Shown here: positions 71-15,131 of the stretch, piece by piece
Numbering within the stretch: the first letter of the stretch is position 1
Layout of the letters: each line of letters starts with the position of its first letter
Translations under genes and position numbers: made by a program
IMG/VR virus record: IMGVR_UViG_3300028548_003601
Location: 1 to 21,801 of that record
Strand: one strand, 5' to 3'
Origin: a virus
Length of the DNA: 21,801 nucleotides
Notes under the pieces: generated by a model
Databases searched by the model: none
Told to the model about the DNA's origin: nothing
The model's input: the letters and a program-made list of their open reading frames with translations, nothing else

Positions 71-1765
71 ATGATATTACGTCCTTACCAAAAGGTAGCT
101 GTTTCTGACGCGTGTAAAGCGTTAGATAAGCATAAGAACACACTCGTTGTAGCTCCTACAGGGGCAGGCAAAACAATCATGCTCTCCGCGCTCGTAGGCA
201 AGCGCCACAAAGAGGGTAAGAAGGTTTTGATTGTGCAACACCGTGATGAGCTTGTAAATCAAAACAAGCAGAAGTTTGAGAAGGTTAATCCTCTTTTAAC
301 CACAAGCATCGTCAATGGCACAGTAAAGCATTGGGATGGCGAAGCCGTCTTCTCAATGGTGCAAACAATTTCCCGCGAACGTAACCTTCGTGATCGTCCT
401 AAGTTTGACATGGTGGTGATTGATGAAGGCCACCATGCAGCGGCTCCCACATACCGAAGGGTGATCGACGCTGTACTGGAAGACAATGAGCACGCAGAAA
501 TCGTAGGCTTTACCGCTACGCCTAACCGTGGCGATGGCAAAGGATTGCGCGGCGTATTTAACAACTGCTCTCACCAAATTGAAATCTCAAGCCTGATTAA
601 CGAAGGCTTTCTCGTTCGACCAAAAACATTTGTTATTGACCTTGGCGTCAACAGCCAACTGGAGAATGTAACCAAACGCGGCAAAGAATACGACATGGAA
701 GAAGTCGCCGCCATTATGGATCGACAAGTCATTAACGATAGAATTGTTCGGGAATGGCGCGAGAAGGCTGGTGATCGTAAAACAGTAGTATTCTGCTCAA
801 CAGTCAAACATGCCGAACATCTCTGCAATGCTTTCATTGCTGATGGCGTAGACGCTGATTTCGTTACAGGAGAGACTGACAAGGCTTTAAGAGCACAAAT
901 GCTGCATGATCTGGAGTTTGGTGACTTGCAGGTTGTTGTGAACGTAGCGGTGCTTACAGAAGGATTTGACGCTCCTCCAGTAGCGTGTGTGATTTTAACC
1001 AGACCTTGCTCCCAGAAAAGCACAATGGTTCAGATGATTGGTCGTGGTTTACGAATCATTGACCCAGAGATTTATTCCGACATCCTAAAGACTGATTGCA
1101 TCGTCATGGACTTCGGAACCAGCGTTATTACGCATGGCAGTATTGATGACGCAGCAAACTTGGATGGTCGAGAAAAGTTGGAGGAGGGTGAAGCCCCAAC
1201 AAAGATTTGTCCAGAATGTGAGGCTGAAGTTCATGCAAGGGTCAATGAATGTCCTATCTGTGGGCATGTCTTCCAGTCGCCAGAGAAGAGCGAATTAGAT
1301 TCGTTTGTCATGACTGAATATGACCTAATGCAAATCTCTCCTTTCTTGTGGATGGACCCATATGGCAAAGGCACTGTGATCATGGCTACAGGCTTTCAAG
1401 GCTACGCTATGGTAGGCAACATCAAGGATCATTGGATTGCCATTGCGAAGCCCAACAAGAAGCCTGCAAAGGTTGTTGCGATTGGCGAAAAGGTTCAGGC
1501 GATGGCTGCGGCTGACGATTTCTTGCGTGAGGTCGAAGACGGTAGCGCAGCAAACAAAACAAAGCGTTGGCTTAATGATATTGCGACCCCCAAGCAGAAA
1601 GAGCTTTTGCGTAGCAATGGCGTGCAAGTAAGCGAAATGGACTTGTCGTTTACCAAATACAAAGCCGCATGTATGCTGGGGTATTATTTTAATCGTAATG
1701 AAATTGACCGTTTAATTGAAAACAATTGGAAGAAAATTACAGGAGAAGATTATGCAACGCGATGA
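71..1765 (+). CDS. Superfamily 2 DEAD/DEAH-like helicase (ResIII type) with C-terminal zinc ribbon
   Basis: This is a predicted ATP-dependent DNA helicase or translocase of 564 residues, acting in phage replication or recombination. Visible motifs are Walker A APTGAGKT at residues 28-35, a DEGH box at 118-121, GFTATP (motif III) at 146-151, and QMIGRGLRI (motif VI) near 321-329. A four-cysteine zinc ribbon (CPEC ... CPIC) lies near 380-398, followed by about 160 residues I cannot assign. The ATG at 71 is chosen because AGG sits 6 nt upstream and the PYQ helicase start follows at once; an in-frame GTG at 29 would add 14 residues and lies inside the hairpin. The gene overlaps the next one by 14 nt and heads the replication operon. 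The closest functional analogues are UvsW-like and restriction-type SF2 enzymes; substrate polarity is unknown. Confidence 0.93.
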   Translation: MILRPYQKVAVSDACKALDKHKNTLVVAPTGAGKTIMLSALVGKRHKEGKKVLIVQHRDELVNQNKQKFEKVNPLLTTSIVNGTVKHWDGEAVFSMVQTISRERNLRDRPKFDMVVIDEGHHAAAPTYRRVIDAVLEDNEHAEIVGFTATPNRGDGKGLRGVFNNCSHQIEISSLINEGFLVRPKTFVIDLGVNSQLENVTKRGKEYDMEEVAAIMDRQVINDRIVREWREKAGDRKTVVFCSTVKHAEHLCNAFIADGVDADFVTGETDKALRAQMLHDLEFGDLQVVVNVAVLTEGFDAPPVACVILTRPCSQKSTMVQMIGRGLRIIDPEIYSDILKTDCIVMDFGTSVITHGSIDDAANLDGREKLEEGEAPTKICPECEAEVHARVNECPICGHVFQSPEKSELDSFVMTEYDLMQISPFLWMDPYGKGTVIMATGFQGYAMVGNIKDHWIAIAKPNKKPAKVVAIGEKVQAMAAADDFLREVEDGSAANKTKRWLNDIATPKQKELLRSNGVQVSEMDLSFTKYKAACMLGYYFNRNEIDRLIENNWKKITGEDYATR

Positions 1766-2039
1766 AATCCTACAACAAGCCGAACAACTTGTGAACGGAC
1801 AGCGTGCCAAAGATTATGGCGATGCCTACGAAAATCATTGTAGAATTGCAGAAGGCTGGAACATTATATTGCGCAGCGCACTTCTAACGCATGGGGAGAT
1901 CAAGGCTGTTCATGTGACATTAATGATGGACTGGTTGAAAACTTCGCGTATCCTAAACACCATAAACCATGAAGATTCATGGGTTGATAAAGCCGCGTAC
2001 TCCAGTTTAGGGGCAGAATTTGCGGATAAGGAACAATGA
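1752..2039 (+). CDS. DUF6378-like phage protein
   Basis: This is a 95-residue, mostly helical protein. The ATG at 1752 is preceded by AGGAG with 6-nt spacing and overlaps the helicase stop. The pattern matches small phage proteins of the DUF6378 type: RAKDYGDAYENH near the N-terminus, a central helix with MMDWLKTSRI, then an HEDSWVDKAAY segment. The acidic and Lys/Arg pattern with a final DxAAY resembles MazG-like nucleotide pyrophosphohydrolases, but I do not see the full EExxE metal-binding set, so enzymatic activity is not claimed. It sits between helicase and nuclease genes and is probably part of nucleotide or replication metabolism. Assignment is from remembered family pattern only. Confidence 0.75.
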   Translation: MQRDEILQQAEQLVNGQRAKDYGDAYENHCRIAEGWNIILRSALLTHGEIKAVHVTLMMDWLKTSRILNTINHEDSWVDKAAYSSLGAEFADKEQ

Positions 2040-2344
2040 TGCCGCGATTTGAAATTTATCTTATGTTTGCCGAAAAGGACGAACTCACTGTCGAAACCTC
2101 GGAATATAAAATGGTCTGTTGGGTCAAAGACCCATCCAACATGGTTGAGGTGCAGAAGACAGCAAACGAAGTAATCGAAGACCACATTGAAGATGCAGAG
2201 AAAGAAGTTTTGTTCGGAACCGCATCGGTCATGATCGAAGGTTCTGAAGTTTTAAATATTGGATTTCGAAATAAAGATGCAGACCCGGATGACATTAGCG
2301 AAGTCATAGAATTGTTCGGAATACGAGAGGAGACAAGGCATTGA
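2036..2344 (+). CDS. Hypothetical acidic protein
   Basis: This 102-residue protein starts at an ATG in the ATGATG overlap with the preceding stop, with AGGA just upstream, so translation is probably coupled. It is acidic, with an N-terminal beta-rich stretch (FEIYLMFAEKDELTVET) and a later segment rich in Asp and Glu. There are no cysteines beyond one, no membrane segment and no signal peptide. I do not recognise a family. The tight overlaps with both neighbours place it in the replication operon. Confidence 0.72.
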   Translation: MMPRFEIYLMFAEKDELTVETSEYKMVCWVKDPSNMVEVQKTANEVIEDHIEDAEKEVLFGTASVMIEGSEVLNIGFRNKDADPDDISEVIELFGIREETRH

Positions 2345-2562
2345 GTGACATACAACCAAAGCCAATTGATGAACTGGCACACATATTAGGCAAGTTTGGA
2401 TGGGGTACTAGGTTTTCTGACTTAACAGAAGATCAAGTCCACACACTGATCTTTGGATTACAAGAAGCGAAACAGCTAACAGCGGAGATAAACATTGGAA
2501 CCCTCGAAGACACTTACTTTAAGTCAACAGGCACTTGGCCCTCTACTTCAATCCCGTTCTAA
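2341..2562 (+). CDS. Hypothetical small protein, TTG start
   Basis: This 73-residue protein begins at TTG 2341, which overlaps the previous stop (TTGA). A GGAG sits 8 nt upstream, which supports this rare start. The sequence SDIQPKPIDELAHILGKFGW looks like a helical protein with Asp/Leu heptads and has no known motif to me. Its last 68 nt overlap the start of the nuclease gene in another frame, so one of the two boundaries may be wrong. Function is unknown; an accessory of the downstream nuclease is possible from the coupling alone. Confidence 0.58.
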   Translation: MSDIQPKPIDELAHILGKFGWGTRFSDLTEDQVHTLIFGLQEAKQLTAEINIGTLEDTYFKSTGTWPSTSIPF

Positions 2563-3277: not shown

Positions 3278-3280
3278 AGC

Positions 3281-3316
3281 GATATGGGGCCGCATGTGGA
3301 TATGCGACCCCACATC
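3281..3316 (+). terminator. Strong 15-bp hairpin between nuclease and primase-helicase
   Basis: Arms 3281-3295 and 3302-3316 pair at 13 of 15 positions around a 6-nt loop, with GGGG/CCCC and CGCAT/ATGCG cores. It starts three bases after the nuclease stop codon. There is no U-run, so it is not a classic intrinsic terminator; an mRNA-processing or stability element, or a pause site, is as likely. A CATCTAGTGAG box follows, then GGGG and the primase start. Confidence 0.55.
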
Positions 3317-3347
3317 TAGTGAGTATTGTGGGTATAGGGGCAAGATA

Positions 3348-5561
3348 ATGAACATTAAAAGGTTTGGCAAGTCGCCAAAGGAGTTAGCAGATAAGATTTC
3401 AAGGGAAGTTCCAAGGGATGTGCAATTACGCGCTTTGTTTGAAACCTACCCAGATGGCATAAAACGAGGCAAAGAATTTTTGCTCGGATCGTTGCGAGGC
3501 GAAAAAGGTCAATCTCTGCATATTAACATTGATACAAGTAGTCCGTGGTTTTTAACTGGCAAAGATTTTGAGTCAGGCGATGGAGTTGGTGGCATTACTA
3601 AAGTTATGAAGGAAGGACGGGGTTGGTCACTTGGAGAAACAGAGGAATATTTTAAAAGTTATCTGCCGCAGAACTTTATGCCTGCGCCCGAAAACATTAT
3701 TAAGCCGAACAATCCTCAAAACTTTCAGGTCACAAACACCACAGCTACTAATGGCTTCCAACAACCCGAACAAAAGACCGTGAAGTCTACCATTGGGCCG
3801 GGAACGCCTTTCGAAGATGAATATGTTTATACAGATAAACATGGCGAAGTCATTGTAACTGTTAGAAAATATTTTGATAAATGCGAGAATGGCGAACTGA
3901 TCTTAGATAGCACGGGCAAGCCAAAGAAACAGTTTCGTCAGTTTATGGATGGTCGGCAAGGAGTCCCTGAACCTCGGCCTCTTTATAATATCCCGAACAT
4001 TTTTGAATCTGACACAGTAATCTGGGTCGAAGGTGAGAAATGCGCAGATGCTCTTAGCCAGCTAGGTTACGCTGCAACTTGCACTATCGGCGGCTCTGGT
4101 ATGCTATCCGAAAACACAGCCTCAAAGTTCGACTTCGCCCCATTGAGAAACAAGCATGTAATCCTATGGCCTGATAATGATGCGGCTGGAAAAAAGCTCG
4201 CAAACATCGTTCAATTACAGGCGAAAGAGGCAGGCGCGAAGTCTATTTTAATGCTGCAAATCCCAGCGTCTAAGGAAGAAAAGTGGGATGCTGCGGATGC
4301 TATTGAGCAAGATTTTAACGTAGAGACGTTTATCAAGTCTCACGAAAGCAAAGTTAAAAAGCCAATCTCTCTGTTGGATGATAGCCTGCTAATTAACCAA
4401 TACTTCGTTGGCTCTCCACCAGAACAAAAGTTTCTTATTGGCGATACAATACCACTAGGAGTGCCTGTTGTGTTCGCTGCTGCTGGTGACAGCGGTAAAG
4501 GTATGATGACCCTCGACCTCGCTATGAAAGTCTCCTCTGGCGCATCAATGCAAAGCGCGTTCGGTGGTCTTGTAGCAGAGCATGGAGATGCAATTCTCCT
4601 TACTGCGGAAGATGACAAGGACGAGATGCACAGGCGTATCTCACGCCTTGATCCAAAGAAATATCGGGAGCATTATGACCATAAACTGCGCATCTTACCA
4701 TTACCAAACCTCGGTGGTGTGTTTCCGGTCATGCAGAAGATCGACAACTCATATCACATGGGTGAAGAATTTTCTCGTATATATGAACAGATGTTAGAGA
4801 TGACAAATCTCAAGCTGATCGTTATTGACCCTCTCGCCTCGTTTGTCCACGCAGATGTAAATGCTGACCCTGCGGCGGGTGCTGCATTCATGAGCATGCT
4901 TGCACAGATGGCTACAGAAACAGGCGCAACTGTTATGGTCAATCACCACATGGCAAAGATCAAAGACAAGGAGCCGATCAAAACACCAGAGGAAGCTCGT
5001 AACATGATTCGCGGAACCTCTGCTATTGTTGATGGCGTTCGTGCTGCGTTCGCTGTTTGGCCTGTAACCGAATCAGTAGCACAGCAACGCTGCAAGGATT
5101 TAAACGTACCATATACGCGCAACGGCGTGTTCGATGGCGCAGTCGTTAAATCAAACGGGCCAGCGAATAGAGAATTTAGACACTTCATTCGTAACCCGAA
5201 CACAGGTTTGCTGGAAGATAGGTCACAAGACATTGTTGCGGTAAAATTCTCACTGACAGTTCGCAACAGACTTGACCTAATATTTAAGTTTGTCGAAGAG
5301 CGAGAATTATCAGGGCATCCAGTTACAAAAGGCGGCAATACTGATGGCCTGTTCGAAATGGTTCGGATTGCACCAGAAGATGACATGACTGCGGCAAACC
5401 TGAAACTTATGAATTTAAGTAGAGATACATTTGAAAAGGACGTTACAAAGCTGCAAACTGCAAATCGCATCGGAGCATTTAGAGTTACCAGAGTTGGGCC
5501 GAAAAAGTTTCTCGGCGTGGTGGGTGGGAACCTACATAATAATGAACCGACTATTGACTGA
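3348..5561 (+). CDS. TOPRIM primase / RepA-DnaB-like helicase fusion
   Basis: This 737-residue bifunctional replication protein is read from ATG 3348, chosen for AGGGG 7 nt upstream; the frame stays open upstream into the nuclease gene, but no good start lies there. The TOPRIM fold shows as VEGEK at about 227-231, LWPDNDAAG near 273-281 and WDAADAI further on. The C-terminal RecA-like half has Walker A GDSGKGMMT near 380 and Walker B LIVIDPLA near 490, with a following MVNHHM segment typical of RepA-like hexameric helicases. The N-terminus (about 1-120) lacks a CHC2/C4 zinc finger, so primer synthesis may rely on another domain, or the protein may be mainly a helicase. It is the central replisome gene in this window; no DNA polymerase is visible. 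Confidence 0.92.
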   Translation: MNIKRFGKSPKELADKISREVPRDVQLRALFETYPDGIKRGKEFLLGSLRGEKGQSLHINIDTSSPWFLTGKDFESGDGVGGITKVMKEGRGWSLGETEEYFKSYLPQNFMPAPENIIKPNNPQNFQVTNTTATNGFQQPEQKTVKSTIGPGTPFEDEYVYTDKHGEVIVTVRKYFDKCENGELILDSTGKPKKQFRQFMDGRQGVPEPRPLYNIPNIFESDTVIWVEGEKCADALSQLGYAATCTIGGSGMLSENTASKFDFAPLRNKHVILWPDNDAAGKKLANIVQLQAKEAGAKSILMLQIPASKEEKWDAADAIEQDFNVETFIKSHESKVKKPISLLDDSLLINQYFVGSPPEQKFLIGDTIPLGVPVVFAAAGDSGKGMMTLDLAMKVSSGASMQSAFGGLVAEHGDAILLTAEDDKDEMHRRISRLDPKKYREHYDHKLRILPLPNLGGVFPVMQKIDNSYHMGEEFSRIYEQMLEMTNLKLIVIDPLASFVHADVNADPAAGAAFMSMLAQMATETGATVMVNHHMAKIKDKEPIKTPEEARNMIRGTSAIVDGVRAAFAVWPVTESVAQQRCKDLNVPYTRNGVFDGAVVKSNGPANREFRHFIRNPNTGLLEDRSQDIVAVKFSLTVRNRLDLIFKFVEERELSGHPVTKGGNTDGLFEMVRIAPEDDMTAANLKLMNLSRDTFEKDVTKLQTANRIGAFRVTRVGPKKFLGVVGGNLHNNEPTID

Positions 5562-5603: not shown

Positions 5604-5609
5604 ATCATT

Positions 5610-6396: not shown

Positions 6397-7128
6397 TTAG
6401 AACTGACCCATCTGCTGCTGACCATAACCCATAGAATTGTTCGGGTTATATGATCCCATCTGCTTGGGTTGGTACGGATTCGACATTCCGCCATAACCAC
6501 CAAATCCACCCATCTGCTGACCCATGCTATATCCACCAAACTGCTGCGCTTGCGGTCTTTGCTGTTGGTATGGGTTCTGCTGATAACCACCCATCATGCC
6601 ATATTGCTGCTGTGGTTGCCCGTATTGCTGCTGTGGCTGCATCTGCCCTTGATAAGACGGCCTTTGTGGCTGCATCTGTGGTCGCCCAAATCCCTGATAC
6701 GGTTGCATCCCATTCGGGCGCATACCACCAATACCCATCATGCGTGGTTGTTGCATGCGTGGTTGTTGCATGCGCTGCATCTGCCGTTCCATCTCGCTAA
6801 TGCGATAATCTTTGTAGCCGCCAGTGTTTGTAAATGCCGTCTGTAACTCTTCTAAACGATCAACCTGTTCTTGCTGTGGAGCCATAGACTTACGGTAATC
6901 CATCAACGCTTGATACTGTGCGTTTTCTGCGAAAGGATTGTAGGGTTCTGCTCTTTGACTTTGCTGTAGCGGTTGCGACGTCTGCATTCCTTGCATCTGT
7001 TGAAGCTGTTGGATGCTAGGTTGCCCTTGTCGCATCTGCTGGCCTCCACTGTTACCAAAAAAACCTCCAAGACCGCCCATAGTAGAGGGGTTAAATTGAC
7101 GAACAGAATTGGCAAAAGGTGATGACAT
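6397..7128 (-). CDS. Gln/Met/Gly-rich low-complexity protein
   Basis: This 243-residue protein is read from ATG 7128 (GGAG 7 nt upstream on the minus strand); a GTG one codon earlier is possible. Most of it is Gln, Met, Gly, Pro and Tyr, with QQ pairs, MQQPR repeats and GGYGG segments. The only region with ordinary composition is a helix-forming stretch around residues 80-125 (QEQVDRLEELQ ... ISEMERQMQRM), probably a coiled coil. No enzyme motif, signal or membrane helix is present. It ends the minus operon after the lysin. Prion-like or scaffolding behaviour is an inference from composition; a virion-associated role is also possible, because the 890-aa protein starts with similar MQPQGPMGQ-type sequence. 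Confidence 0.75.
   Translation of the reverse strand: MSSPFANSVRQFNPSTMGGLGGFFGNSGGQQMRQGQPSIQQLQQMQGMQTSQPLQQSQRAEPYNPFAENAQYQALMDYRKSMAPQQEQVDRLEELQTAFTNTGGYKDYRISEMERQMQRMQQPRMQQPRMMGIGGMRPNGMQPYQGFGRPQMQPQRPSYQGQMQPQQQYGQPQQQYGMMGGYQQNPYQQQRPQAQQFGGYSMGQQMGGFGGYGGMSNPYQPKQMGSYNPNNSMGYGQQQMGQF
6741..6770 (-). repeat. Tandem 15-bp repeat in the Gln-rich gene
   Basis: TGCGTGGTTGTTGCA occurs twice in direct succession (6741-6755 and 6756-6770), giving the protein repeat MQQPR on the minus strand. It is in frame, so copy-number change would lengthen the protein without a frameshift. Confidence 0.85.
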
Positions 7129-7137
7129 CACAAATCT

Positions 7138-7155
7138 CCGAATAAACTTATTCGG
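7138..7155 (-). promoter_or_regulatory. Inverted repeat over the ribosome site of the Gln-rich gene
   Basis: CCGAATAA-AC-TTATTCGG is a perfect 8-bp inverted repeat with a 2-bp centre. In minus-strand mRNA its second arm contains the first bases of the GGAG ribosome site for ATG 7128, so folding would partly mask translation initiation. The arms are variants of the TTGTTCGG octamer that recurs in this genome, so a protein-binding site is the alternative reading. Confidence 0.5.
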
Positions 7156-7161
7156 GTTATA

Positions 7162-7386
7162 TCACCCTTTCTTGATCCAATCAACTCTTCGCTCACCCAT
7201 GTAAGAATCAACAACCATAATTAAAAAAATTGGCAAATCATTTGGATTCAAACCTAAACCGAACAAAAGTTCGCAAACTAAATTACGAGAGTCAGATAAA
7301 GATACGTTTTCTGGAAGCTGCTGAAGAAGATCACTAATAATATTCTCCACTCTTTCTGGATTTAATGGCTCTTGGCTCATACTCAT
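7162..7386 (-). CDS. Hypothetical helical protein
   Basis: This 74-residue protein starts at ATG 7386, with AGGATTAGGA just upstream and overlapping the end region of the lysin gene. It is acidic in the N-terminal half and hydrophobic in the middle (LPIFLIMVVDSYMG near residues 50-63), which could be a buried helix rather than a membrane span. No family is recognised. Position directly after a lysin would suit a lysis accessory such as a holin-like or spanin-like protein, but it lacks the topology I would require for either. Confidence 0.68.
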   Translation of the reverse strand: MSMSQEPLNPERVENIISDLLQQLPENVSLSDSRNLVCELLFGLGLNPNDLPIFLIMVVDSYMGERRVDWIKKG

Positions 7387-7917: not shown

Positions 7918-8247
7918 TTATTTTTCAATACCAAATTTGTACATCCAATTCTGTAAAACTTGATAACTCTTCAAGCCAAGCAGCTTTGATGCATCGCTCA
8001 CGTTCTTAGATCGGGTCAATGCACGTTCGACATAATCAATTTTAATCCGGTCAATCGCCGCAGTCACATTAAAATCATCAGGATCAACAGACACTTGTTC
8101 GGGTAAAGTCGGTGGATTCGCATCTCGCCAATCCTCGTTTACCTTTAAATTATGCCGAACCTCGTCAATGAAACCCATCAAATCACTCTCCGTTTTAATG
8201 CCGTTCAAACGATCAACTACATAGTGCATACACATTGTATCATCCAT
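7918..8247 (-). CDS. Fis-type helix-turn-helix protein
   Basis: This 109-residue protein starts at ATG 8247, overlapping the stop of the 433-aa gene by 8 nt. The last ~48 residues match the C-terminal DNA-binding domain of Fis and NtrC-type activators: AAIDRIKIDYVERALTRSKN, then VSDASKLLGLKSYQVLQNWM and KFGIEK. There is no AAA+ sigma-54-activation domain, so it is a stand-alone DNA binder with an unrelated N-terminal 60 residues. It could regulate phage transcription or bend DNA at replication or packaging sites. The repeated palindromes in this window are candidate targets, which is inference only. Confidence 0.82.
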   Translation of the reverse strand: MDDTMCMHYVVDRLNGIKTESDLMGFIDEVRHNLKVNEDWRDANPPTLPEQVSVDPDDFNVTAAIDRIKIDYVERALTRSKNVSDASKLLGLKSYQVLQNWMYKFGIEK

Positions 8248-9541
8248 TATTCTTATCCTTCTTAACTTTTAAAATATACTCGTGATCAATCACGCCCAAC
8301 TCAGGATCACCGCAAACCATAGGATTAATCCACTTGCGCTCCTTCACACGACCAAACATATCCTTGTAAACACGCCAGTGACCACGCCGAACATGTTGAC
8401 GCTTCGGAGTGCCATTGCCAGTAAACAACTGGTCATAAACAATAACGCCACGCTTAGGTAACTCAATCTCAATTACCTTAACCTCGCTCTTTGGAACGAC
8501 ACGACCCCAACGAACCGAACTAACCTTGTTCGGTGCAGGAGAAACTTCCCGAACAAATCTTGGGTAGTTCAACAACGAAAACACCGCGATTAAAAACCGC
8601 AAGTCACCTTCCATAGCATGACAAGATAAACTCAACATCTTTCTAATCATTTCTGGGTTTTGCATAATCGGACGCATGTCTTGACACGCAAAAAAATCAT
8701 GCGGGTTAACTTGCAGGTTTGGTGTCCACTTTAAAAACTCATCGGCTGCACCATCATTATTACTGATATACGCTCGACCCATCAAAGCGCCCATAAAGTT
8801 AGCTCTAGTATCTTCATTTTCCCGATCACTCATAAAGCTATCTTCGCCAACTTGAAACTTGCTAGACTTTAATAAAACAGGTTCATCTGGATCGTTCGAA
8901 AACAAAAATGTACACATAGGGCCAGTAATCTTCGGACCCTTAGAATCGCTTAAAGGTTCACACATAACCAGAGAATACTCAAAGCAACCGTTGCCATTGT
9001 TGCGGATTAAATAACCAAGCTTATTTGCAACGCTGTCACGGTGATAATCTACCGGAATACCAGTCTTTTCGAAATTTTCTTGAATACAGTCAAAGCGCTT
9101 TAACTCGTCCCACTCAATCCACAAAGTATCAAACGCAGGAATTGCGCGTTCAATCAACTTTGAAAAATACTTCGGGTAAGAAAAACTTAACGCAACAGCG
9201 TGCTCAACAAAATTGTCGGACAACTTCATACGTTCAGCCTTCGCCATGTCATTACGAAACGAACGAATGGCAAAATCGCCGCGCTTGCTCTGTCTGTAAG
9301 AGTGCATAGATCGCTTCGGGACTGCCAAGCCAGACAGTACCTCGTTATAAAGATCAATGTTCGAACTACGATCACCCTTTCTCATTGTATGTTTTAGGAC
9401 CTCGCCAGCAACAGTTAAAGAAACATTGTCCCCGTCTTGATTAATAAAACCTTTATCCTCAAGATCGTTCAACAAATTTGTAGTTTTGTTCGGGTCAAAC
9501 GATTTAGAAGCCTTTTTAATAATATCATCCTTAGAAACCAT
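8240..9541 (-). CDS. Uncharacterised phage protein with C-terminal GHWR signature
   Basis: This 433-residue protein starts at ATG 9541, overlapping the preceding TGA (TGATG) and with GGGGAG 8 nt upstream. Residues 1-50 look like a winged helix (DDIIKKASKSF ... LLNDLEDKGFINQDG). The middle is mixed alpha/beta with no motif I recognise. The C-terminus has RRGHWRVYKDMFGRVKERKW and then NPMVCGDPELG near residues 385-416; an RGHWR followed by WxxP and a GD turn is a signature I recall at the C-terminus of many uncharacterised phage and plasmid proteins. Its chemistry is unknown to me. It is the largest gene of the minus operon, and by position it could be regulatory or involved in host takeover. 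Confidence 0.83.
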   Translation of the reverse strand: MVSKDDIIKKASKSFDPNKTTNLLNDLEDKGFINQDGDNVSLTVAGEVLKHTMRKGDRSSNIDLYNEVLSGLAVPKRSMHSYRQSKRGDFAIRSFRNDMAKAERMKLSDNFVEHAVALSFSYPKYFSKLIERAIPAFDTLWIEWDELKRFDCIQENFEKTGIPVDYHRDSVANKLGYLIRNNGNGCFEYSLVMCEPLSDSKGPKITGPMCTFLFSNDPDEPVLLKSSKFQVGEDSFMSDRENEDTRANFMGALMGRAYISNNDGAADEFLKWTPNLQVNPHDFFACQDMRPIMQNPEMIRKMLSLSCHAMEGDLRFLIAVFSLLNYPRFVREVSPAPNKVSSVRWGRVVPKSEVKVIEIELPKRGVIVYDQLFTGNGTPKRQHVRRGHWRVYKDMFGRVKERKWINPMVCGDPELGVIDHEYILKVKKDKNNG

Positions 9542-9736: not shown

Positions 9737-9758
9737 TTGAATTATTCCTCAATATAGA

Positions 9759-9795
9759 CATGCCCCATATTATCCCACATAAAATAAATTGTCAA
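9759..9795 (-). promoter_or_regulatory. Consensus sigma-70-like promoter for the minus-strand lysis/regulation operon
   Basis: On the minus strand TTGACA (9795-9790) and TAATAT (9772-9767) are separated by exactly 17 nt, with an AT-rich stretch upstream. The surroundings of the -10, TGTGGGATAATATGGG, are shared with the promoter at 12776. Transcription would start near 9760, 25 nt before the zinc-finger gene. Confidence 0.75.
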
Positions 9796-9814
9796 TAAGA
9801 AAATTTATCTATTT

Positions 9815-9858: not shown

Positions 9859-9860
9859 GA

Positions 9861-10016
9861 GTCTAGTATTGAGGCAGATCGGGATAAGGTGAATTCCCTT
9901 TCTGTCCTCAAATCCATAGCATGGGAGTTTTTGGGACGCAACAAAAAAATGCAGAGTTAGTGAAAAAAATGCAGAGTTTATAAGTCGATGATTTGTTCGG
10001 TTTATTTCAGCAGCAC
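9861..10016. other. Gene-free segment between two terminators with 20-bp spaced repeats
   Basis: The sequence AAAAAAATGCAGAGTT occurs at 9943-9958 and again at 9963-9978, exactly 20 bp (about two helical turns) apart. A plus-strand TCTAGTATTGAGG box lies at 9861 and a TTGTTCGG octamer at 9993. I see no convincing ORF. A small RNA or protein-binding region is possible but unproven. Confidence 0.4.
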
Positions 10017-10048
10017 AAAAAAAACCCCCGCTCAAAATCAGGCGGGGG
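10017..10048 (-). terminator. Intrinsic terminator ending the GGCT operon
   Basis: CCCCCGC (10025-10031) and GCGGGGG (10042-10048) pair around a 10-nt loop. On the minus strand the stem is followed by eight T (complement of 10017-10024). It lies 30 nt after the stop of the last small gene of this operon. Confidence 0.8.
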
Positions 10049-10077
10049 CTTTCATATTATTCGGGTTATGTCGGGTT

Positions 10078-10173
10078 CTACCACCATTGGCAAACAACGC
10101 CGACTATCCACAAAATCACAATCACAAAAATCGTGCCAATAATAATCCAATCTTGCCAATTGCCCCAGTTCAT
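10078..10173 (-). CDS. 31-aa single-pass membrane miniprotein
   Basis: This short protein starts at ATG 10173 with a perfect GGAGG 7 nt upstream. It reads MNWGNWQDW, a run of Ile, Val, Leu and Phe long enough to span a membrane, and ends CQWW. Tryptophans flank both ends of the span as in small membrane proteins. It is translationally coupled (TGATG) to the gene before it and is last in its operon. A holin-like, antiholin-like or superinfection-exclusion peptide is possible; nothing distinguishes these. Confidence 0.65.
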   Translation of the reverse strand: MNWGNWQDWIIIGTIFVIVILWIVGVVCQWW

Positions 10174-10346: not shown

Positions 10347-10510
10347 TCAATGCTTTTCTTTACAGCCTCGACCTGTTCGGGCGTCAGCATCATTGCAATC
10401 TCTTCGGCAAGCTTTGTCGCCATATCGGATTTCGCTTGAGTAGGCGCACTGATAGCAAGATCGCAGGCCATGTGAAAAGCCTCAATCGGGTTTGTTAGTT
10501 CGGTATTCAT
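10334..10510 (-). CDS. Hypothetical 58-aa helical protein
   Basis: It starts at ATG 10510, in ATGA overlap with the cyclotransferase stop, with GGAG 8 nt upstream; a longer upstream reading is only frame openness. The protein is alpha-helical and amphipathic (PIEAFHMACDLAIS, then KLAEEIAMMLTPEQVEAVKK), with no cysteine knuckles or membrane span. It ends EEVA at the repeated junction. No family is assigned. Confidence 0.7.
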   Translation of the reverse strand: MNTELTNPIEAFHMACDLAISAPTQAKSDMATKLAEEIAMMLTPEQVEAVKKSIEEVA

Positions 10511-10917
10511 GCTGCTAACTCCGCGTCTGATGCGTCTTCTGCGGCAGCGCGTAAATGCCAATCATCAAGGCCAAAGTCTCGATAACCTTCCGAAATCATC
10601 GTATAATAATGATTGCTCGGCTTGCGTAAAGAACCCTTGTTGCCGTTCATGTCATAGATCAACCAATCGCCGTTAATCTTGCGCCGATCATATAGGTGGG
10701 GGAAACCCTCTAAAATGTCTAACGCTCGTAAGCAATCTTGCGTAATCTCCCACAATACAACTGGTAAAACCATGTCGATATCATGCCGAAAATCAGCAAC
10801 ACCGCGAAACGTCAAACGGTAGTCGGGCAAGTAAAAGCCGCCCATAGGTTTGGCCTTCGGGCATCGTGAAGCCATAGCCTCACGGTTCGTGTTCATTCCA
10901 TATGCTAAATAGTACAT
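10507..10917 (-). CDS. Gamma-glutamylcyclotransferase-like (AIG2/GGCT fold) protein
   Basis: This 136-residue protein is read from ATG 10917 with AGGA 6 nt upstream. The N-terminal MYYLAYGMNTN is the glycine-loop signature of the AIG2/GGCT fold (usually YGSN). The catalytic acid is E70 in LDILEGFPHLYDRR. Length and motif order fit stand-alone GGCT proteins, which cleave gamma-glutamyl amides by releasing 5-oxoproline. Amidoligases and GGCT-fold proteins are known to occur together in bacteria and phages, where they are predicted to form and remove amide or gamma-glutamyl links. An amidoligase lies at 13674-14831 in this window. Target (cell wall peptide, small thiol or a protein tag) is unknown. 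Confidence 0.85.
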   Translation of the reverse strand: MYYLAYGMNTNREAMASRCPKAKPMGGFYLPDYRLTFRGVADFRHDIDMVLPVVLWEITQDCLRALDILEGFPHLYDRRKINGDWLIYDMNGNKGSLRKPSNHYYTMISEGYRDFGLDDWHLRAAAEDASDAELAA

Positions 10918-10937
10918 TTTCTGTCCTTTTGTTCGGT

Positions 10938-10963
10938 TTAAAAATGGGGGCTTTTGCCCCCAT
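10938..10963 (-). terminator. Intrinsic terminator after the 140-aa gene
   Basis: ATGGGGGC (10944-10951), loop TTTT, GCCCCCAT (10956-10963) is a perfect 8-bp stem. On the minus strand it is followed by a T-run (complement of 10938-10943). It lies only 4 bp past the stop of the 140-aa gene and 27 bp before the cyclotransferase start, so it probably reduces rather than abolishes downstream expression. Confidence 0.68.
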
Positions 10964-10966
10964 CCA

Positions 10967-11389
10967 TTAAGCAACTGCGTAAGCATCGGCTCGCGCCTTA
11001 TTGATATGGTCCTCAATCAAATCAAGCGCATCACCTACAAGATCATCCGTGAAGAACCACAGTAAATCTTTATTGTTAGGGTTCGGTAGGCTCTTGAAAT
11101 GCTCAACAATAACTTTTTGAGCGTAACCAGTAGAGCATTGTGCATCGTGCGCCGTGTACCTTACAAACTGCGGAATAACCCAGCGATGTAAAGCAGCGTC
11201 TAAGCCGTTGCAAATTCCATACTTGTCAACCATAGCGATTAACTCAGCTACGTTTGATTTGTAGTGCTCCGCGCCTAAATAAGAGCCGTCTAACCAGCAA
11301 CGGAAGAAGCGACGGTTCGCGTGGTTGCTATCCATTAGATCGCCTTGGAGATCGCTTAAAATGCGGTTTTTGATTTCTGCGTGTGCCAT
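10967..11389 (-). CDS. Hypothetical 140-aa protein
   Basis: It starts at ATG 11389 with AAGGAA 8 nt upstream; an ATG at 11407 in the same frame lies inside the TCTAGTAT leader box and is less likely. The sequence is helical with aromatic and His residues (FFRCWLDGSYLGAEHYKSNV, LHRWVIPQFV) and an acidic C-terminal helix (LLWFFTDDLVGDALDLIEDH). No catalytic motif, signal or membrane segment is evident. It is first in a minus-strand unit driven by a TTGACA promoter and is followed by a terminator, so it is probably the most strongly expressed gene of this unit. Function unknown. Confidence 0.75.
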   Translation of the reverse strand: MAHAEIKNRILSDLQGDLMDSNHANRRFFRCWLDGSYLGAEHYKSNVAELIAMVDKYGICNGLDAALHRWVIPQFVRYTAHDAQCSTGYAQKVIVEHFKSLPNPNNKDLLWFFTDDLVGDALDLIEDHINKARADAYAVA

Positions 11390-11405
11390 AGTTTTAATTC
11401 CTTTC

Positions 11406-11449
11406 ATACTAGACGCCCCAAGTAATACCACACCAAGTGGGACTGTCAA
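11406..11449 (-). promoter_or_regulatory. Promoter and TCTAGTAT leader for the 140-aa/GGCT operon
   Basis: On the minus strand TTGACA (11449-11444) is followed after 16 nt by TATTAC (11427-11422), embedded in GTGTGGTATTACTTGGGG, which parallels the other two strong promoters. TCTAGTAT (11413-11406) then leads into the AAGGAA ribosome site. The divergent repeat cluster starts about 37 bp upstream, so repressor or activator control is plausible. Confidence 0.6.
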
Positions 11450-11485
11450 CAGTAAAGATAAGTTTTTTTATCTTTTTTTGTTTCG

Positions 11486-11639
11486 TTGATTTTAAACGAT
11501 AATTTACCGGAAAGAAATTTACCGGATTTTTTCCGGTATCCGGTAATCCGGTAAATAATAAAACAAAAACAATGCCTTAGCACTTTACAGTATCTACCGG
11601 AAGAATGGTAATTTCCGGTAGATTATTGTTTAAAATCAA
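11486..11639. repeat. 28-bp inverted repeat enclosing TACCGG/CCGGTA motifs
   Basis: The left arm 11486-11513 and right arm 11612-11639 are reverse complements at 26 of 28 positions. Both differences become G-U pairs in plus-strand RNA, so that RNA could form a continuous 28-bp stem. Inside are two further perfect 11-bp inverted repeats: 11517-11527 with 11546-11556, and 11592-11602 with 11613-11623. TACCGG or CCGGTA occurs seven times between the arm ends and once more at 11650-11654. The region separates divergent transcription units. Replication origin, operator array or structured RNA are the candidate roles. Confidence 0.8.
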
Positions 11640-11664
11640 GGGCTTATTTACCGGAAAACCTCCA

Positions 11665-11704
11665 CCCCCTATAGGGGGGGATATACAGATCCCCCAAACT
11701 ATTC
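11665..11704 (+). promoter_or_regulatory. Alternative G/C hairpins upstream of small terminase
   Basis: CCCCCTATAGGGGG (11665-11678) is a perfect palindrome. The same G-run can instead pair as GGGGGAT (11676-11682) with ATCCCCC (11689-11695), so the two folds exclude each other. The second, with its flanks ATAGGGGGG and CCCCCAAACTATTC, copies the element at 18-53 before the helicase operon. A switch-like leader or a protein site is inferred. Confidence 0.42.
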
Positions 11705-11823
11705 CTTTAACGCGAGCGCTTCCGGTTCGTTTTGGGTATGGGAACTGTTGGGCTTGCATGGGTTGCCTGAAAGATGTAAACTGAACGCATAACCAGAAGC
11801 CGCAAAATTATTCGGGATGACAA

Positions 11824-12348
11824 ATGCCAAAAATAGGAGAGCAGCAGAACAAAGGTGAAAAAAGACTAACGCCTCCGCAGCAGAAGTTTCTGGATAGTTA
11901 CATTCACAAAGACATGACACAGACCGCAGCAGCTAGAGCAGCAGGGTACAAAAATCCAAACGTCTCAGCGGTGCAGCTTCTCAATAATCCACGCGTAAAA
12001 GAACGTATGGAGGAAATGCGGAACGAACTAGAAAGCAAGTACGGCGTCTCGGTCACAAAGTCTGTTCGGGATATGCAACGCCTCAGAGATGAAGCATGGA
12101 GCGCAGGGAACTTCGGTGCAGCAATCAAAGCCGAGGAACTTCGCCTGAAAGTAACAGGGCTTATGGTAGCCCGTAGCCATGTAACTCATGAAAATGTCGA
12201 GAACCTAACCCGTGATCAGATCGTCGAACAACTTCAAGAGTTCATGACGCGTGCTAAAGATCGCATGATCGACATAACACCTGAAGAAACTCCCATAAAA
12301 GCCGAACAAATCCCTATAACGGACTGTAGCGAGAACGTCGCCGAGTAG
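11824..12348 (+). CDS. terS: Terminase small subunit (Terminase_2 type)
   Basis: This 174-residue DNA-recognition subunit of the packaging motor starts at ATG 11824, the first possible start because an in-frame TGA lies at 11818-11820; GGGA lies 6 nt upstream. Residues 15-70 carry the family signature: LTPPQQKFLDSYIHKDMTQ, then AAARAAGYKNPNVSAVQLLN and PRVKERMEEM, that is the DNA-binding HTH and following helix. The middle is helical for oligomerisation, and the C-terminus (ITPEETPIKAEQIP) is an acidic tail that would contact the large subunit. It lies more than 8 kb upstream of that subunit, separated by an amidoligase and two huge proteins. GC-rich repeats just downstream may hold the packaging site. 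Confidence 0.87.
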   Translation: MPKIGEQQNKGEKRLTPPQQKFLDSYIHKDMTQTAAARAAGYKNPNVSAVQLLNNPRVKERMEEMRNELESKYGVSVTKSVRDMQRLRDEAWSAGNFGAAIKAEELRLKVTGLMVARSHVTHENVENLTRDQIVEQLQEFMTRAKDRMIDITPEETPIKAEQIPITDCSENVAE

Positions 12349-12376
12349 CCCGAACTCTTGGCGCGGGGGTCGGGGA

Positions 12377-12438
12377 GGGGCCGCAGCCCCCCAGAAAAGG
12401 CCATTCGGGTGGGGTTGTATCGGGTTTCGGGTTCGGGG
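12377..12438 (+). repeat. G-rich tracts with G-quadruplex potential
   Basis: A GGGGC-CGCA-GCCCC hairpin (12377-12390) follows the terS stop. Then five G-runs of at least three (12407-12409, 12411-12414, 12422-12424, 12429-12431, 12435-12438) have loops of 1-7 nt, satisfying the usual G-quadruplex rule on the plus strand. A further set, CGGGGTCGGGGTCGGG, lies near 12584-12598. Confidence 0.5.
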
Positions 12439-12539
12439 TGCTTAAAATTGTTCGGGTTACTCAGCGGGCTTCCCAGAGAGTCACACAATCACACACACTT
12501 TGCCTGAATCAGCGCCGGGGATCAACTGTCCGGGGGATA

Positions 12540-12563
12540 TAACCCGATAAATTGTTCGGGTTA
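12540..12563. promoter_or_regulatory. 24-bp palindrome built on the TTGTTCGG octamer
   Basis: The site reads TAACCCGA ... TCGGGTTA around AT-rich centre TAAATTGT; 10 of 12 base pairs are symmetric. A second palindrome of the same design is at 13493-13516. This is the form expected of a dimeric DNA-binding protein site. Confidence 0.5.
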
Positions 12564-12632
12564 GTCATCCGGGTGACTCGTCGGGGTCGGGGTCGGGATT
12601 CCTGCCGGGGATGACAACACGAACAATTGTTT

Positions 12633-12660
12633 GTTACCTAACCGTTACCTAACCGTTACC
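12633..12660 (+). repeat. 11-bp iterons GTTACCTAACC
   Basis: GTTACCTAACC occurs at 12633-12643 and 12644-12654, followed by a partial third copy GTTACC (12655-12660); an isolated GTTACC lies near 12742. Head-to-tail short repeats beside octamer sites suit a replication-initiator or terminase binding site. Confidence 0.65.
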
Positions 12661-12775
12661 CGGCGCGGCGACTCCCGGCAGCAGACTCTCGCCTGGCAAA
12701 ATAAGCCGAACAATTGTTTAACTTGTTAGCGTGACTCAAGCGTTACCGCCCAGATAAGTTTTTTTATTTTTCTTG

Positions 12776-12819
12776 TTGACATTATATATAGTGTGGGATA
12801 GTGTGGGAGTATTCTAGTA
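12776..12819 (+). promoter_or_regulatory. Consensus promoter with TCTAGTA leader
   Basis: TTGACA (12776-12781), 17-nt spacer, TAGTGT (12799-12804); the surroundings TGTGGGATAGTGTGGG match the minus-strand promoter at 9795. A T-rich block lies upstream. TTCTAGTA (12812-12819) follows the start region and is joined to an AGAGAGGA ribosome site before ATG 12833. Confidence 0.75.
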
Positions 12820-12832
12820 GAGAGGAAAGAAA

Positions 12833-13090
12833 ATGAAAAATATTACACGACACACTGGCAAGATCAGAATGATTGAGCGCCTGAAGAATTCAAAAAATGG
12901 CAACCCACAATTTATTCTAGGGGTTTTTGACTATCCAGAAAAAGGTTTAGGCTGGTCGTTTAGAACGCCAAAAGATAGTATGCTTGGTTATAAGATTCAA
13001 AACTATATTGATATTGACGCAGACGTTACTGTTACAATTGGCACGCACTATAATACTTGCACGCTAAACAGCATTGAGGGATTGGCATAA
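12833..13090 (+). CDS. Hypothetical 85-aa protein
   Basis: It starts at ATG 12833 with GAGAGGA 6-7 nt upstream, directly behind a consensus promoter, so it is likely to be well expressed. The sequence is beta-rich (TGKIRMIERLKNSKNGNPQF, then GWSFRTPKDSMLGYKIQNY and TVTIGTHYNTCTLNSIEG). I recall short phage proteins with the same RLxNSxNGNP ... GTxYxxxTLxSI pattern, but none with a known role. No membrane segment, zinc site or HTH is visible. The stop overlaps the next start (TAATG). Confidence 0.75.
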   Translation: MKNITRHTGKIRMIERLKNSKNGNPQFILGVFDYPEKGLGWSFRTPKDSMLGYKIQNYIDIDADVTVTIGTHYNTCTLNSIEGLA

Positions 13091-13365
13091 TGTTTTTAAC
13101 AATTGAAAATAACAGAACAGGCGAAATGTTGGCAATGCGTCCACTCGCACCGAACGAAAAACTTGACCTTGAGGTACTCGTCCACCGAGAAATCAAAAAA
13201 CTATCACACGATGAAGACGAGCACTGGAGCACCGAGCTAGAAATTGCGGATAACGTGCCGAACGGTTGCGCCGACTTCTACGCTCAGATCAGAACAAGCA
13301 AAAACGATAGCTTGTGCGTATGGTCAACAGCAGACTTCTTCTACAAGAACATTGCTTGCGGATAA
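13090..13365 (+). CDS. Hypothetical 91-aa acidic protein
   Basis: It starts at ATG 13090 in TAATG overlap with the preceding stop, so the two genes are coupled. It is acidic and mixed alpha/beta (MRPLAPNEKLDLEVLVHREI, then DEDEHWSTELEIADNVPNG). Two cysteines are scattered and form no knuckle. No family is recognised. A strong terminator follows within 60 bp, so the pair forms a two-gene transcription unit from the promoter at 12776. Confidence 0.72.
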   Translation: MFLTIENNRTGEMLAMRPLAPNEKLDLEVLVHREIKKLSHDEDEHWSTELEIADNVPNGCADFYAQIRTSKNDSLCVWSTADFFYKNIACG

Positions 13366-13370
13366 ACAAT

Positions 13371-13424
13371 CGGGCCTTCGGGTTCGGTATCGGGTTCGGG
13401 CCTTCGGGTTCGGGCCCTTTTTTT
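13371..13424 (+). terminator. Repeat-built intrinsic terminator
   Basis: CGGGCCTTCGGGTTCGG (13371-13387) is repeated starting at 13397 within the same stretch. The last GGGCC (13398-13402) pairs with GGCCC (13413-13417) and is followed by seven T (13418-13424). It ends the two-gene unit. Confidence 0.75.
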
Positions 13425-13456
13425 ATGCTGAATCACCCCCAACACATATACACACA

Positions 13457-13492
13457 CACAAAAAAACACAAAAAAACACAAAAAAACACAAA
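13457..13492. repeat. 10-bp phased A-tract repeat (predicted bent DNA)
   Basis: A7 tracts begin at 13460, 13470 and 13480, separated by CAC, giving a unit CACAAAAAAA of exactly 10 bp, preceded by a CA run. A-tracts in phase with the helical turn bend DNA. The repeat ends beside the palindrome at 13493-13516. Further A-tracts in a repeated GACCAAAAA context lie near 13520 and 13540. Confidence 0.85.
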
Positions 13493-13516
13493 TAACCCGA
13501 ACAATTGTTCGACTTA
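13493..13516. promoter_or_regulatory. 24-bp palindrome with paired TTGTTCG octamers
   Basis: TAACCCGAACAA and TTGTTCGACTTA are mirror halves at 10 of 12 positions, the best two-sided version of the TTGTTCGG element in the window. It lies next to phased A-tracts and 180 bp before the amidoligase gene. A dimeric regulator or initiator site is inferred. Confidence 0.6.
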
Positions 13517-13590
13517 GACCAAAAACAGCTCAGAAATAGACCAAAAAAAAACTTGTAAGTTATTGTTTTTAAACAGTTTTTTAGTGCATT

Positions 13591-13661
13591 TTGTTGTTGT
13601 GTTCTCTGGGAAGATATGGGACAAATGGGCAAGGGCAAGGACATGCCCCTAAATCTAGTAT
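13591..13661 (+). promoter_or_regulatory. Weak promoter and TCTAGTAT leader for amidoligase
   Basis: TTGTTG (13591-13596), 16 nt, GATATG (13613-13618), set in CTGGGAAGATATGGG, is a degenerate relative of the strong promoters. A GGGCA-AGGACA-TGCCC hairpin (13633-13648) and TCTAGTAT (13654-13661) follow, then GAGGA before ATG 13674. The leader box is clear; the promoter assignment is weak. Confidence 0.4.
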
Positions 13662-13673
13662 GAGGAAAACAAA

Positions 13674-14831
13674 ATGATACACGCTTTTGGAAATGAATGG
13701 GAAGTGGCCTTTGACTGCCAAGTATCCCGCGAAGAAATAAACAGAGCACTAATAACAGTCTGTGGCGCTGGCGCAGTTAAAATAGTATCCGACCCCAGCA
13801 TACCACGAAACCAAGGTGGCCATTCCAGATGGGAGCTAGTTTTTTCCCCGATGGCAGATTGTGACCGCACATGGGCAATTTACAAAGCAGCCGAAACAGT
13901 TTGCGATAGTTTTGGAGCCTATTCTCCCAGACCTAGCGGCATCAATTCAGCTGGACACCATGTTCACATAAGCCGCAGCGCACTAGCTGAAGGCGTAACA
14001 GCCGAGCAATTCACAGACGCAAGTATCGCTTACATGAATAATAGCCGTGGATATTTGAGTGGCAGCGCTTGGTTTGCCGATCCAATGGACGCAATAGCCG
14101 TTAAAGACATTGTTATTCGATACGCCGAAAACAATATTAACCTTTATTTACCACGCAGCCGACACGATGCATTTTATACCAAGACCATATCAACACGAAC
14201 AATTGCACAGCTTAAAGCTTGCACAGGCGGCGTCGAAGATTTGGCTGCATGCATTGGCCAAGGAAAATACCACGTTATCAATTTAACCGAGCATTGCTGG
14301 CAGGGAAATAAGACCATTGAATTCCGCCAAGGTGGATGCACTTGGAACGCAAACAAAACCAAAGAGTGGAACCGCCTACTGCTAAACCTAGTTTACAGCA
14401 CACGCCAAGACCGTGTTGAAGAGGCGAGCCAGCGCACCATCACAACGCCAACATCTGGCAACGACATGTTTAGACGCGGCACACGCCTTGCAGTTCAATA
14501 CGATCTGATGAGAGCACCAGCTGGAGCAACCACCCGCGAGATAATCGCTGCAATGGGCGGCAGCGAAGGAGATGTAAGACGTCGCGTTTCAGAATTGCGT
14601 GACCGACTTGGACACGACGCGGCCATCGTAACCCACACCCAGCAGGCACAAGGTCGCAGTTCTGGCGATGGAACCGACCACACACGGTACGAAGTTTTGG
14701 GAGAATACAGCACCGGAAACGAGGCGAGACTAAAACCAGAAAACAGACGCGGACCAGAGACAATATTCGCACGCATGTCAGATGCAGAATATGAATACTG
14801 GCAAGGCCGAGCGGAGCAGCTGCGCAGATAG
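13674..14831 (+). CDS. Amidoligase (COOH-NH2 ligase family) with C-terminal winged-helix-like region
   Basis: This 385-residue protein starts at ATG 13674 with AGGA 7 nt upstream. It shows the glutamine-synthetase-fold amidoligase pattern: FGNEWEVAFD at 5-14, SAGHHVHIS at about 92-100, and KTIEFRQGGCTWN at about 213-225 with E216 and R218. The family forms amide bonds between a carboxylate and an amine using ATP and is predicted to make peptide tags or cell-wall crosslinks. A GGCT-like partner lies at 10507-10917. Residues about 265-325 (GATTREIIAAMGGSEGDVRR and RVSELRDRLG) look like a winged helix, an unusual partner for this domain and not part of the catalytic fold. It is a single-gene unit between its own leader and a strong terminator. 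Confidence 0.85.
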   Translation: MIHAFGNEWEVAFDCQVSREEINRALITVCGAGAVKIVSDPSIPRNQGGHSRWELVFSPMADCDRTWAIYKAAETVCDSFGAYSPRPSGINSAGHHVHISRSALAEGVTAEQFTDASIAYMNNSRGYLSGSAWFADPMDAIAVKDIVIRYAENNINLYLPRSRHDAFYTKTISTRTIAQLKACTGGVEDLAACIGQGKYHVINLTEHCWQGNKTIEFRQGGCTWNANKTKEWNRLLLNLVYSTRQDRVEEASQRTITTPTSGNDMFRRGTRLAVQYDLMRAPAGATTREIIAAMGGSEGDVRRRVSELRDRLGHDAAIVTHTQQAQGRSSGDGTDHTRYEVLGEYSTGNEARLKPENRRGPETIFARMSDAEYEYWQGRAEQLRR

Positions 14832-14855
14832 CAGCGCAAACCACCGACAAATTGA

Positions 14856-14880
14856 CCAGCCCCAACGGGCTGGTTTTTTT
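14856..14880 (+). terminator. Intrinsic terminator after amidoligase
   Basis: CCAGCCC (14856-14862), loop, GGGCTGG (14867-14873), then seven T (14874-14880). A textbook rho-independent terminator 25 bp past the stop codon. Confidence 0.92.
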
Positions 14881-14881
14881 G

Positions 14882-15131
14882 TGTCCCAAGGTACCCTAGG
14901 CAATCGGGAATTTGTTCGGGATATCGGGACTAAAGACACCCATACCCCCTTTTTATCGGGCATTCACATATCGGACTACACCACACAGAGTTTTACTCAA
15001 ACGATTACCTCAAAAAACCTTTTTGGTATGTATGGGTCCCATAGGGTGTCTCAAAAATTTTTTTCAAAAAAATCCGTTGACGGGTCCCTTATCTTCCCAT
15101 ACCGTACCACTCAGAGTGGAAGGTAATATTA
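14882..15131 (+). other. Gene-free segment before the virion module
   Basis: No convincing ORF. It holds the last TTGTTCGG octamer (14912), a palindrome TATGGG-T-CCCATA (15031-15043), a long-range inverted pair GACACCC (14935) / GGGTGTC (15044), a repeated GGGTCCC (15034 and about 15081), and A/T runs. TTGACG near 15076 could be a -35, but no good -10 follows at 17 nt. It marks the switch from the octamer-rich to the octamer-free part of the window. Confidence 0.4.

Follow-up and report, generated by a model that had tools for sequence, protein, structure and literature searches.

A dispersed 26-bp palindrome, predicted to seat a regulator, in one genome module of uncultured aquatic phages

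We analysed a 21,801-base fragment of a phage genome (IMG/VR record IMGVR_UViG_3300028548_003601, classed as linear; positions 1–21,801, hereafter the window), in which the octamer TTGTTCGG recurs on both strands. The window encodes a helicase, a Cas4-type exonuclease, a primase/helicase, an endolysin, the terminase small subunit (TerS), a GGACT (gamma-glutamyl cyclotransferase-like) protein, an amidoligase and TerL, and an Rfam search of it returned no RNA families. The phages that carry the word form an abundant, uncultured aquatic group that infects bacteria.

The repeated word and its palindromic unit

The octamer is the commonest 8-mer of the window, with 20 matches (12 on the plus and 8 on the minus strand) against 0.88 ± 1.04 expected from dinucleotide shuffles, none of 100 of which reached as high a count. 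These are the 20 occurrences listed by the initial annotation, which was made from the letters alone; each of its coordinates and strands was right, and so was its estimate of fewer than one copy by chance. Its rough figures for the core GTTCGG, about 40 before 15 kb and about four after, agree with our counts of 40 and 4 (44 in the window). In coding DNA, 14 copies were found, and 1000 synonymous-codon shuffles gave 1.15 ± 1.05 with a maximum of 5; this codon-preserving control, which the annotation had proposed, bears out its view that codon choice is not the cause. Three of the 40 early GTTCGG matches (13382, 13394 and 13408) belong to a G+C hairpin at 13370–13425, GGGCCTTCGGGTTCGGGCCC followed by T7, which resembles an intrinsic terminator.

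Although the octamer had been taken as the unit, an alignment of 213 non-redundant sites from relatives revealed a longer one. The consensus, ATAACCCGAACAATTGTTCGGGTTAT, is a 26-bp imperfect palindrome with one nearly invariant arm, which contains TTGTTCGG, and one degenerate arm. The weak arm still shows the dyad although the octamer used as seed selected the strong arm only. Contacts in the two arms would be separated by about one turn of the helix, the spacing expected for a helix-turn-helix dimer. Palindromic spacer copies, of which the annotation had mentioned two, are real and lie at 6424–6449, 12539–12564 and 13492–13517. A position matrix, trained on the same clade as it was used to scan, identified 28 sites in the first 15 kb of the window, 18 of the 20 octamers included, and none from 15 to 21.8 kb. 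The matrix is nearly identical across every lineage, with the differences TTGTTCGT and ATGTTCGG in the G016 and G017 lineages.

The absence of strand bias that had been noted also holds for the full unit: the 28 matrix sites divide 14:14 between the strands, and 156 sense against 174 antisense sites in 21 genomes give no orientation bias relative to genes (p 0.35). A Chi-like recombination signal would need an asymmetric, polar word. Since the dyad has no polarity with respect to strand and is placed in a fixed way relative to promoters, as described below, neither the recombination nor the uptake function that had been suggested for the word found support.

The word belongs to one phage clade. 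We collected 80 loci whose primases are related (97 to 67% identity). Where their length allowed the test, TTGTTCGG or its one-base shift was almost always the top or a near-top over-represented 8-mer, and this rank held in nearly all relatives as far as a primase identity of 49%. An 18-mer taken from the motif matched at least 120 viral stretches, and 79 of the 80 examined came from the same clade, some with a primase identity of just 48%. Four named phages with a related TerL (HTVC027P, HTVC023P, 023Pt_psg01 and DSL-LC04) had either no copy or a single one in the 50 kb covered, and AcaML1, which has Sak4 and a primase in common, had none in its first 20 kb. A dispersed word of HTVC023P, CAGTTCC, was considered as an analogue and rejected because it is strand-biased and confined to structural-gene codons. 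Bacterial genomes, one per species and 257 Gb in total, gave 14 matches to the 18-mer, mostly terminators or chance, and none was repeated along the stretches fetched. Among the bacterial stretches L240, L243, L245, L246, L249, L250 and L253 (Flavobacteriaceae and one Pasteurella), perfect AACCCGAACAATTGTTCGGGTT palindromes look like intrinsic terminators, not operators.

Site conservation, concentration and promoter geometry

Selection on the DNA word is visible inside the primase gene. At six positions of this gene, many relatives have the word in the same codons. When stretches that encode identical amino acids are compared, the 8-mer is also the same in 85.5% of comparisons if it belongs to the motif and in 23.6% if it does not; the codons that flank the sites do not share this synonymous conservation. 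Synonymous-site selection thus acts on the word itself. In the window, such shared sites are found at 3699–3724 (minus strand; same aligned codons in 31 of 40 relatives), 3760–3785 (minus; 36 of 40), 3987–4012 (minus; 24 of 40) and 5190–5215 (minus; 31 of 40). Lineages that are about 50% identical differ in their site positions and retain many sites, and this slow turnover of places with the number kept looks like selection on the regional number of sites. The idea of a protein-binding word therefore came through both comparisons on which the annotation had staked it, the conservation of sites in relatives and the counts in codon shuffles.

The sites concentrate in a replication-TerS-amidoligase module of 13–17 kb, with 17–31 sites in about 15 kb, mostly intragenic. 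In 10 relatives, represented by genomes or large fragments, the helicase-to-amidoligase region carries 1.0–2.3 sites/kb against 0.14–0.49/kb elsewhere. By gene, the density is 2.74/kb in terS, 2.08/kb in the primase gene, 0.70/kb in the helicase gene and 0.59/kb in the amidoligase gene, while terL copies contain no site in 17 kb and the p207 gene, which we read as SSB-like, none in 9.6 kb. The densest 700 bp adjoin terS in most genomes. A family of 958-residue proteins without assigned function (G001 11035–13911) has 0.85 sites/kb, and the word is therefore concentrated, not absolutely confined. The earlier proposal of a "genome-wide" word that binds a phage protein and is confined to one module accordingly needs revision on two counts: the word is not genome-wide, and in complete relatives the confinement is not absolute. 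Its central part, a binding site for a phage protein, has gained from the dyad, the restriction to one clade, the concentration in one module, the synonymous-site selection and the helical phasing.

The phasing is seen after terS, where three or four clustered palindromes are followed by an extended −10 promoter that reads TTGACA-N15-GATA(A/G)T. In the window the cluster consists of sites at 12436–12461 (plus; matrix score 23.4), 12540–12565 (plus; 28.5, a palindrome), 12613–12638 (minus; 20.0) and 12700–12725 (minus; 25.5), and the sigma70-like promoter TTGACA-N15-GATAGT, with extended −10, lies at 12776–12802 (plus). The last palindrome is centred about 63 bp upstream of the −35. Among 45 non-redundant promoters of this post-terS type, 40 have a palindrome no more than 100 bp upstream of the −35, and the centre of the nearest one lies at 52–55, 61–64 or 71–74 bp in 34 of these 40 and at 78–97 bp in the other six; spacings of 56–60 and 65–70 bp occur in none of the 40. 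The helical phasing of the nearest palindrome has an R of 0.70 (n = 40), a figure whose Rayleigh-type certainty is overstated because the relatives are not independent.

Several controls bear on this pattern. The classes were found before testing, and the rule was recorded before held-out contigs were fetched: in this small set four of six promoters had a site, at 52, 54, 62 and 73 bp, all in class, and two had no nearby site. With milder deduplication the distances keep to the same classes, and TTGACA words without a −10 give a broad spread. Mapped on a TerS tree, the distance class must have changed 12 times, in some instances between TerS sequences that are nearly identical, so the pattern was not simply inherited once; recombination may have added to it. 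Neighbouring sites in general show no helical phasing to one another. Insertions and deletions of whole helical turns are the mark expected of a bound protein that faces a partner on the same side of the DNA.

A second fixed geometry is found upstream of the amidoligase operon. The strongest site of the window, a near-perfect palindrome at 13491–13516 (minus; matrix score 30.9, rank 1 of 28), lies about 170 bp upstream of the amidoligase gene. Among 67 non-redundant cases, the corresponding site outranks all others of its locus in 29, and the distance from the palindrome centre to TATGGGA is 34 bp in 17 cases and 44 bp in four, with six otherwise at 30–35 bp. In G002, G003, L044 and L087, the promoter of this operon also carries an overlapping second inverted repeat, TCCCATAA-N11-TTATGGGA; ATGTGGGA/TCCCACAT is likewise over-represented in G001.

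A leftward promoter of the same form, TTGACA-N15-GATAAT, lies at 9769–9795 (minus). Together with the promoter at 12776–12802 it appears to represent one family of phage promoters that combine an extended −10 with a spacer of 15 bp, which is unusually short. A site in an intergenic spacer at 9981–10006 (plus; 23.9) lies about 198 bp upstream of it.

The remaining sites are distributed over the module. Two lie in the helicase gene, at 732–757 (plus; matrix score 16.9; octamer 744) and 807–832 (minus; 13.5), and are followed by sites at 1774–1799 (minus; 15.6; octamer 1780) and 2300–2325 (plus; 21.7; octamer 2312). Beyond the four in the primase/helicase gene comes a strong palindromic site at 6425–6450 (plus; 28.0), which belongs to repeat family D1, and then sites at 7136–7161 (plus; 18.1), 7253–7278 (minus; 21.1; octamer 7259), 7466–7491 (minus; 13.4), 8083–8108 (plus; 19.0; octamer 8095), 8543–8568 (minus; 16.6; octamer 8549), 9474–9499 (plus; 17.2; octamer 9486), 10045–10070 (plus; 14.6) and 10917–10942 (plus; 15.4; octamer 10929). 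One site directly precedes the terS start codon (11796–11821, plus; 20.0), as it does at 9–24 bp in several relatives, and two lie within terS, at 12050–12075 (plus; 13.6) and 12296–12321 (minus; 17.1; octamer 12302). The amidoligase gene contains a site at 14189–14214 (minus; 18.0), and the last of the window is at 14900–14925 (plus; 22.6; octamer 14912). Octamers at 2210–2217 (plus) and 8526–8533 (plus) stand alone, under the matrix threshold.

Two further features of the region were recorded. A second repeated word, TACCGGAA/ATTTACCGGA, clusters at 11486–11660, where a spacer separates the leftward p160 gene from terS, and may be a second operator or an origin element; TACCGGAA is over-represented, with six copies in the window. 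Positions 6397–7131 encode a 244-residue protein rich in glutamine, methionine and proline, which has no family match and is kept in part of the relatives.

Candidate binders and alternative readings

On sequence evidence, a gene regulator almost certainly docks at the 26-bp site, whose copies cover a whole block of the genome. We consider it probable that ATAACCCGAACAATTGTTCGGGTTAT is the operator of a dimeric regulator, phased to a helix face, and that the binder is the amidoligase-winged-helix protein or a short paralogue of it. The amidoligase (13674–14831, plus) has a DUF3489-like winged helix at its C-terminus, confidently predicted by AlphaFold2. A fold search with the model matched glutamine-synthetase-fold ligases, e.g., YbdK (Z 12.6, rmsd 3.5, 206 residues), and was uninformative on the winged helix. 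The gene is present in all 15 core site-bearing genomes and in none of the four motif-less TerL relatives. Because it is missing from these relatives, which do have TerS homologues, and because a strong phased site lies at its own promoter, the amidoligase-winged-helix protein appears to be the likeliest binder. Short stand-alone winged-helix proteins related to its C-terminal domain are encoded just upstream of the amidoligase in some relatives (G001 31628–31867, G013 32425–32601 and L044 17055–17228). The GGACT protein (10507–11016), like the amidoligase, is found throughout the clade, a pairing that would fit the making and cutting of a peptide-like bond.

The initial annotation had named a Fis/NtrC-type small helix-turn-helix protein (7918–8247, minus) among possible binders, and its conserved recognition helix at first favoured it. 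It cannot be the general binder, since contigs that are rich in sites and span its locus lack it (L130, L151, L170/G016, G017 and G020).

In the mechanism that we propose, a dimeric regulator would sit on one helix face upstream of strong sigma70-like promoters and would either contact RNA polymerase or, more likely, loop with many other copies. Repression or modulation by looping seems a little more likely than simple activation because the promoters already have a consensus −35 and an extended −10. With such looping, the 20–30 intragenic sites would act as auxiliary operators and make the regulation or compaction of the whole module cooperative. The regulator would be the amidoligase-winged-helix protein or the short winged-helix protein whose gene precedes it in part of the relatives, and would control its own operon via the strongest site. 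A search of 12 records, some of which are fragments, gave no match to a tyrosine integrase or resolvase, and control in lytic growth is for this reason more likely than a role in lysogeny. A bolder version, which we put forward only tentatively, is that the amidoligase-winged-helix enzyme-regulator reads the palindrome and folds the 15-kb replication-packaging module, whose coding sequence would carry operators shaped by synonymous selection, into a looped regulatory domain, a phage-scale counterpart of the MatP macrodomain that would also exert promoter control dependent on helical phase.

A number of observations weigh against this assignment. In the 15 core genomes the amidoligase is no more universal than the primase, the exonuclease, the GGACT protein and TerS. 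Deep lineages differ in the presumed recognition helix of the winged-helix domain (CSEQRVRAAVSEIR, WTAQTIRARVSEMR, TSRQNIAGRISEMR) but not in the core of the word. To our knowledge, no sequence-specific role has been described for an amidoligase-winged-helix fusion. As to the geometry, a few divergent contigs have off-class distances of 78, 88, 92 and 97 bp, and the leftward promoter at 9769–9795 and its relatives have sites only at about 200–265 bp upstream, without phasing. G013 has almost only cluster sites and none in its primase gene.

Other readers of the operators were considered. A transcription or nucleoid factor of the host, exploited by the phage, could bind them: the core CGAAC-N4-GTTCG resembles Gram-positive LexA boxes (general knowledge), and no single phage gene beyond the five universal ones is required. 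We regard this as unlikely, as the word tracks the phage clade, is absent from the TerL-related pelagiphages and, searched as an 18-mer in the bacterial genomes, gave only the 14 matches described above. Likewise unlikely is a module-wide silencing array that resembles stoperators, in which a bound regulator halts transcription elongation. About 20–30 sites over early-type genes, some of them intragenic, would suit such an array, and the numbers per genome are similar in cluster A phages (PMC6550527). Stoperators, however, are asymmetric and oriented with transcription (PMC9283540), whereas the sites described here are dyads that divide 156:174. With no integrase or resolvase found in the 12 records and no repressor identified, a lysogenic role is not indicated.

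Another protein of the phage might read the operators instead, first of all TerS (11824–12348, plus), a ring-forming protein with a helix-turn-helix whose gene adjoins the densest site cluster. The cluster would then be the pac region and the dispersed copies would be secondary. Pac sites often adjoin terS, and terS is universal in the clade, has 2.74 sites/kb and lies beside the densest 700 bp in most genomes. Nevertheless, TerS homologues occur in the four TerL-related phages without the word, a pac signal spread over 15 kb would initiate packaging anywhere, and packaging would leave unexplained both the helical distances to the sigma70 promoters and the operator of the amidoligase operon; we consider this reading quite improbable. 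That the word arises from a preference for certain codons or dinucleotides, or from a peptide motif that recurs, can be dismissed almost entirely: several sites do share codon pairs such as CCG AAC and GTT CGG, but both kinds of shuffle yield about one copy, the word occurs on both strands and in different frames beside codons that lack its synonymous conservation, and the helical phasing in spacers cannot stem from codons.

Nearest known systems and significance

A literature search limited to open-licence papers found no description of such an array. The nearest known systems are the L5 stoperators, SPBRE/MrpR and MatP/matS, and none fits fully. The stoperators of cluster A mycobacteriophages (L5, TipsytheTRex) are alike in having 20–30 dispersed copies of one regulator site, some at promoters. 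They are 13-bp asymmetric sequences to which a monomer binds, and they follow the direction of transcription in the short gaps between genes (PMC9283540, PMC6550527); reversed copies lose function (PMC9283540). The sites described here are 26-bp dyads, unoriented, mostly intragenic and helically phased at promoters, in phages in which no integrase was found in the 12 records.

SPBRE of the Bacillus prophage SPbeta was also first spotted in silico as a repeated phage element, and one master regulator, MrpR, serves its many places. It is a 15-bp element located at promoters in about 10 places, and its reader has a tyrosine-recombinase fold (PMC10516654); our array has about 30 sites, mostly intragenic, and the candidate reader is a winged helix fused to an amidoligase. 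Like the word of this clade, matS is repeated across one domain and scarce elsewhere. The 23 matS sites of Escherichia coli are 13 bp long, cover 800 kb of chromosome and are architectural (PMC3330122), whereas here 17–31 sites occupy about 15 kb of phage DNA and are tied to promoters. No MatP homologue was indicated by Pfam matches among the proteins scanned, a search that included no direct use of a MatP model. Finally, class I activators and looping repressors of the CRP, AraC and GalR type (general knowledge) also depend in their action on helical phase upstream of a promoter, although they use one or a few sites per promoter and not an array over a whole module.

Arrays of dispersed operators have been described in a few temperate phages. 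The present case extends over diverse uncultured aquatic phages in which an integrase was not found, with about 30 palindromes, mostly intragenic, and with selection at silent positions. The spacings of 53, 63 and 73 bp, with nothing between, amount to a natural helical-phasing experiment and make the mechanism directly testable. If the reader is indeed the amidoligase-winged-helix fusion, a phage protein family of obscure role would gain a function, and a ligase fold would be linked to gene control.

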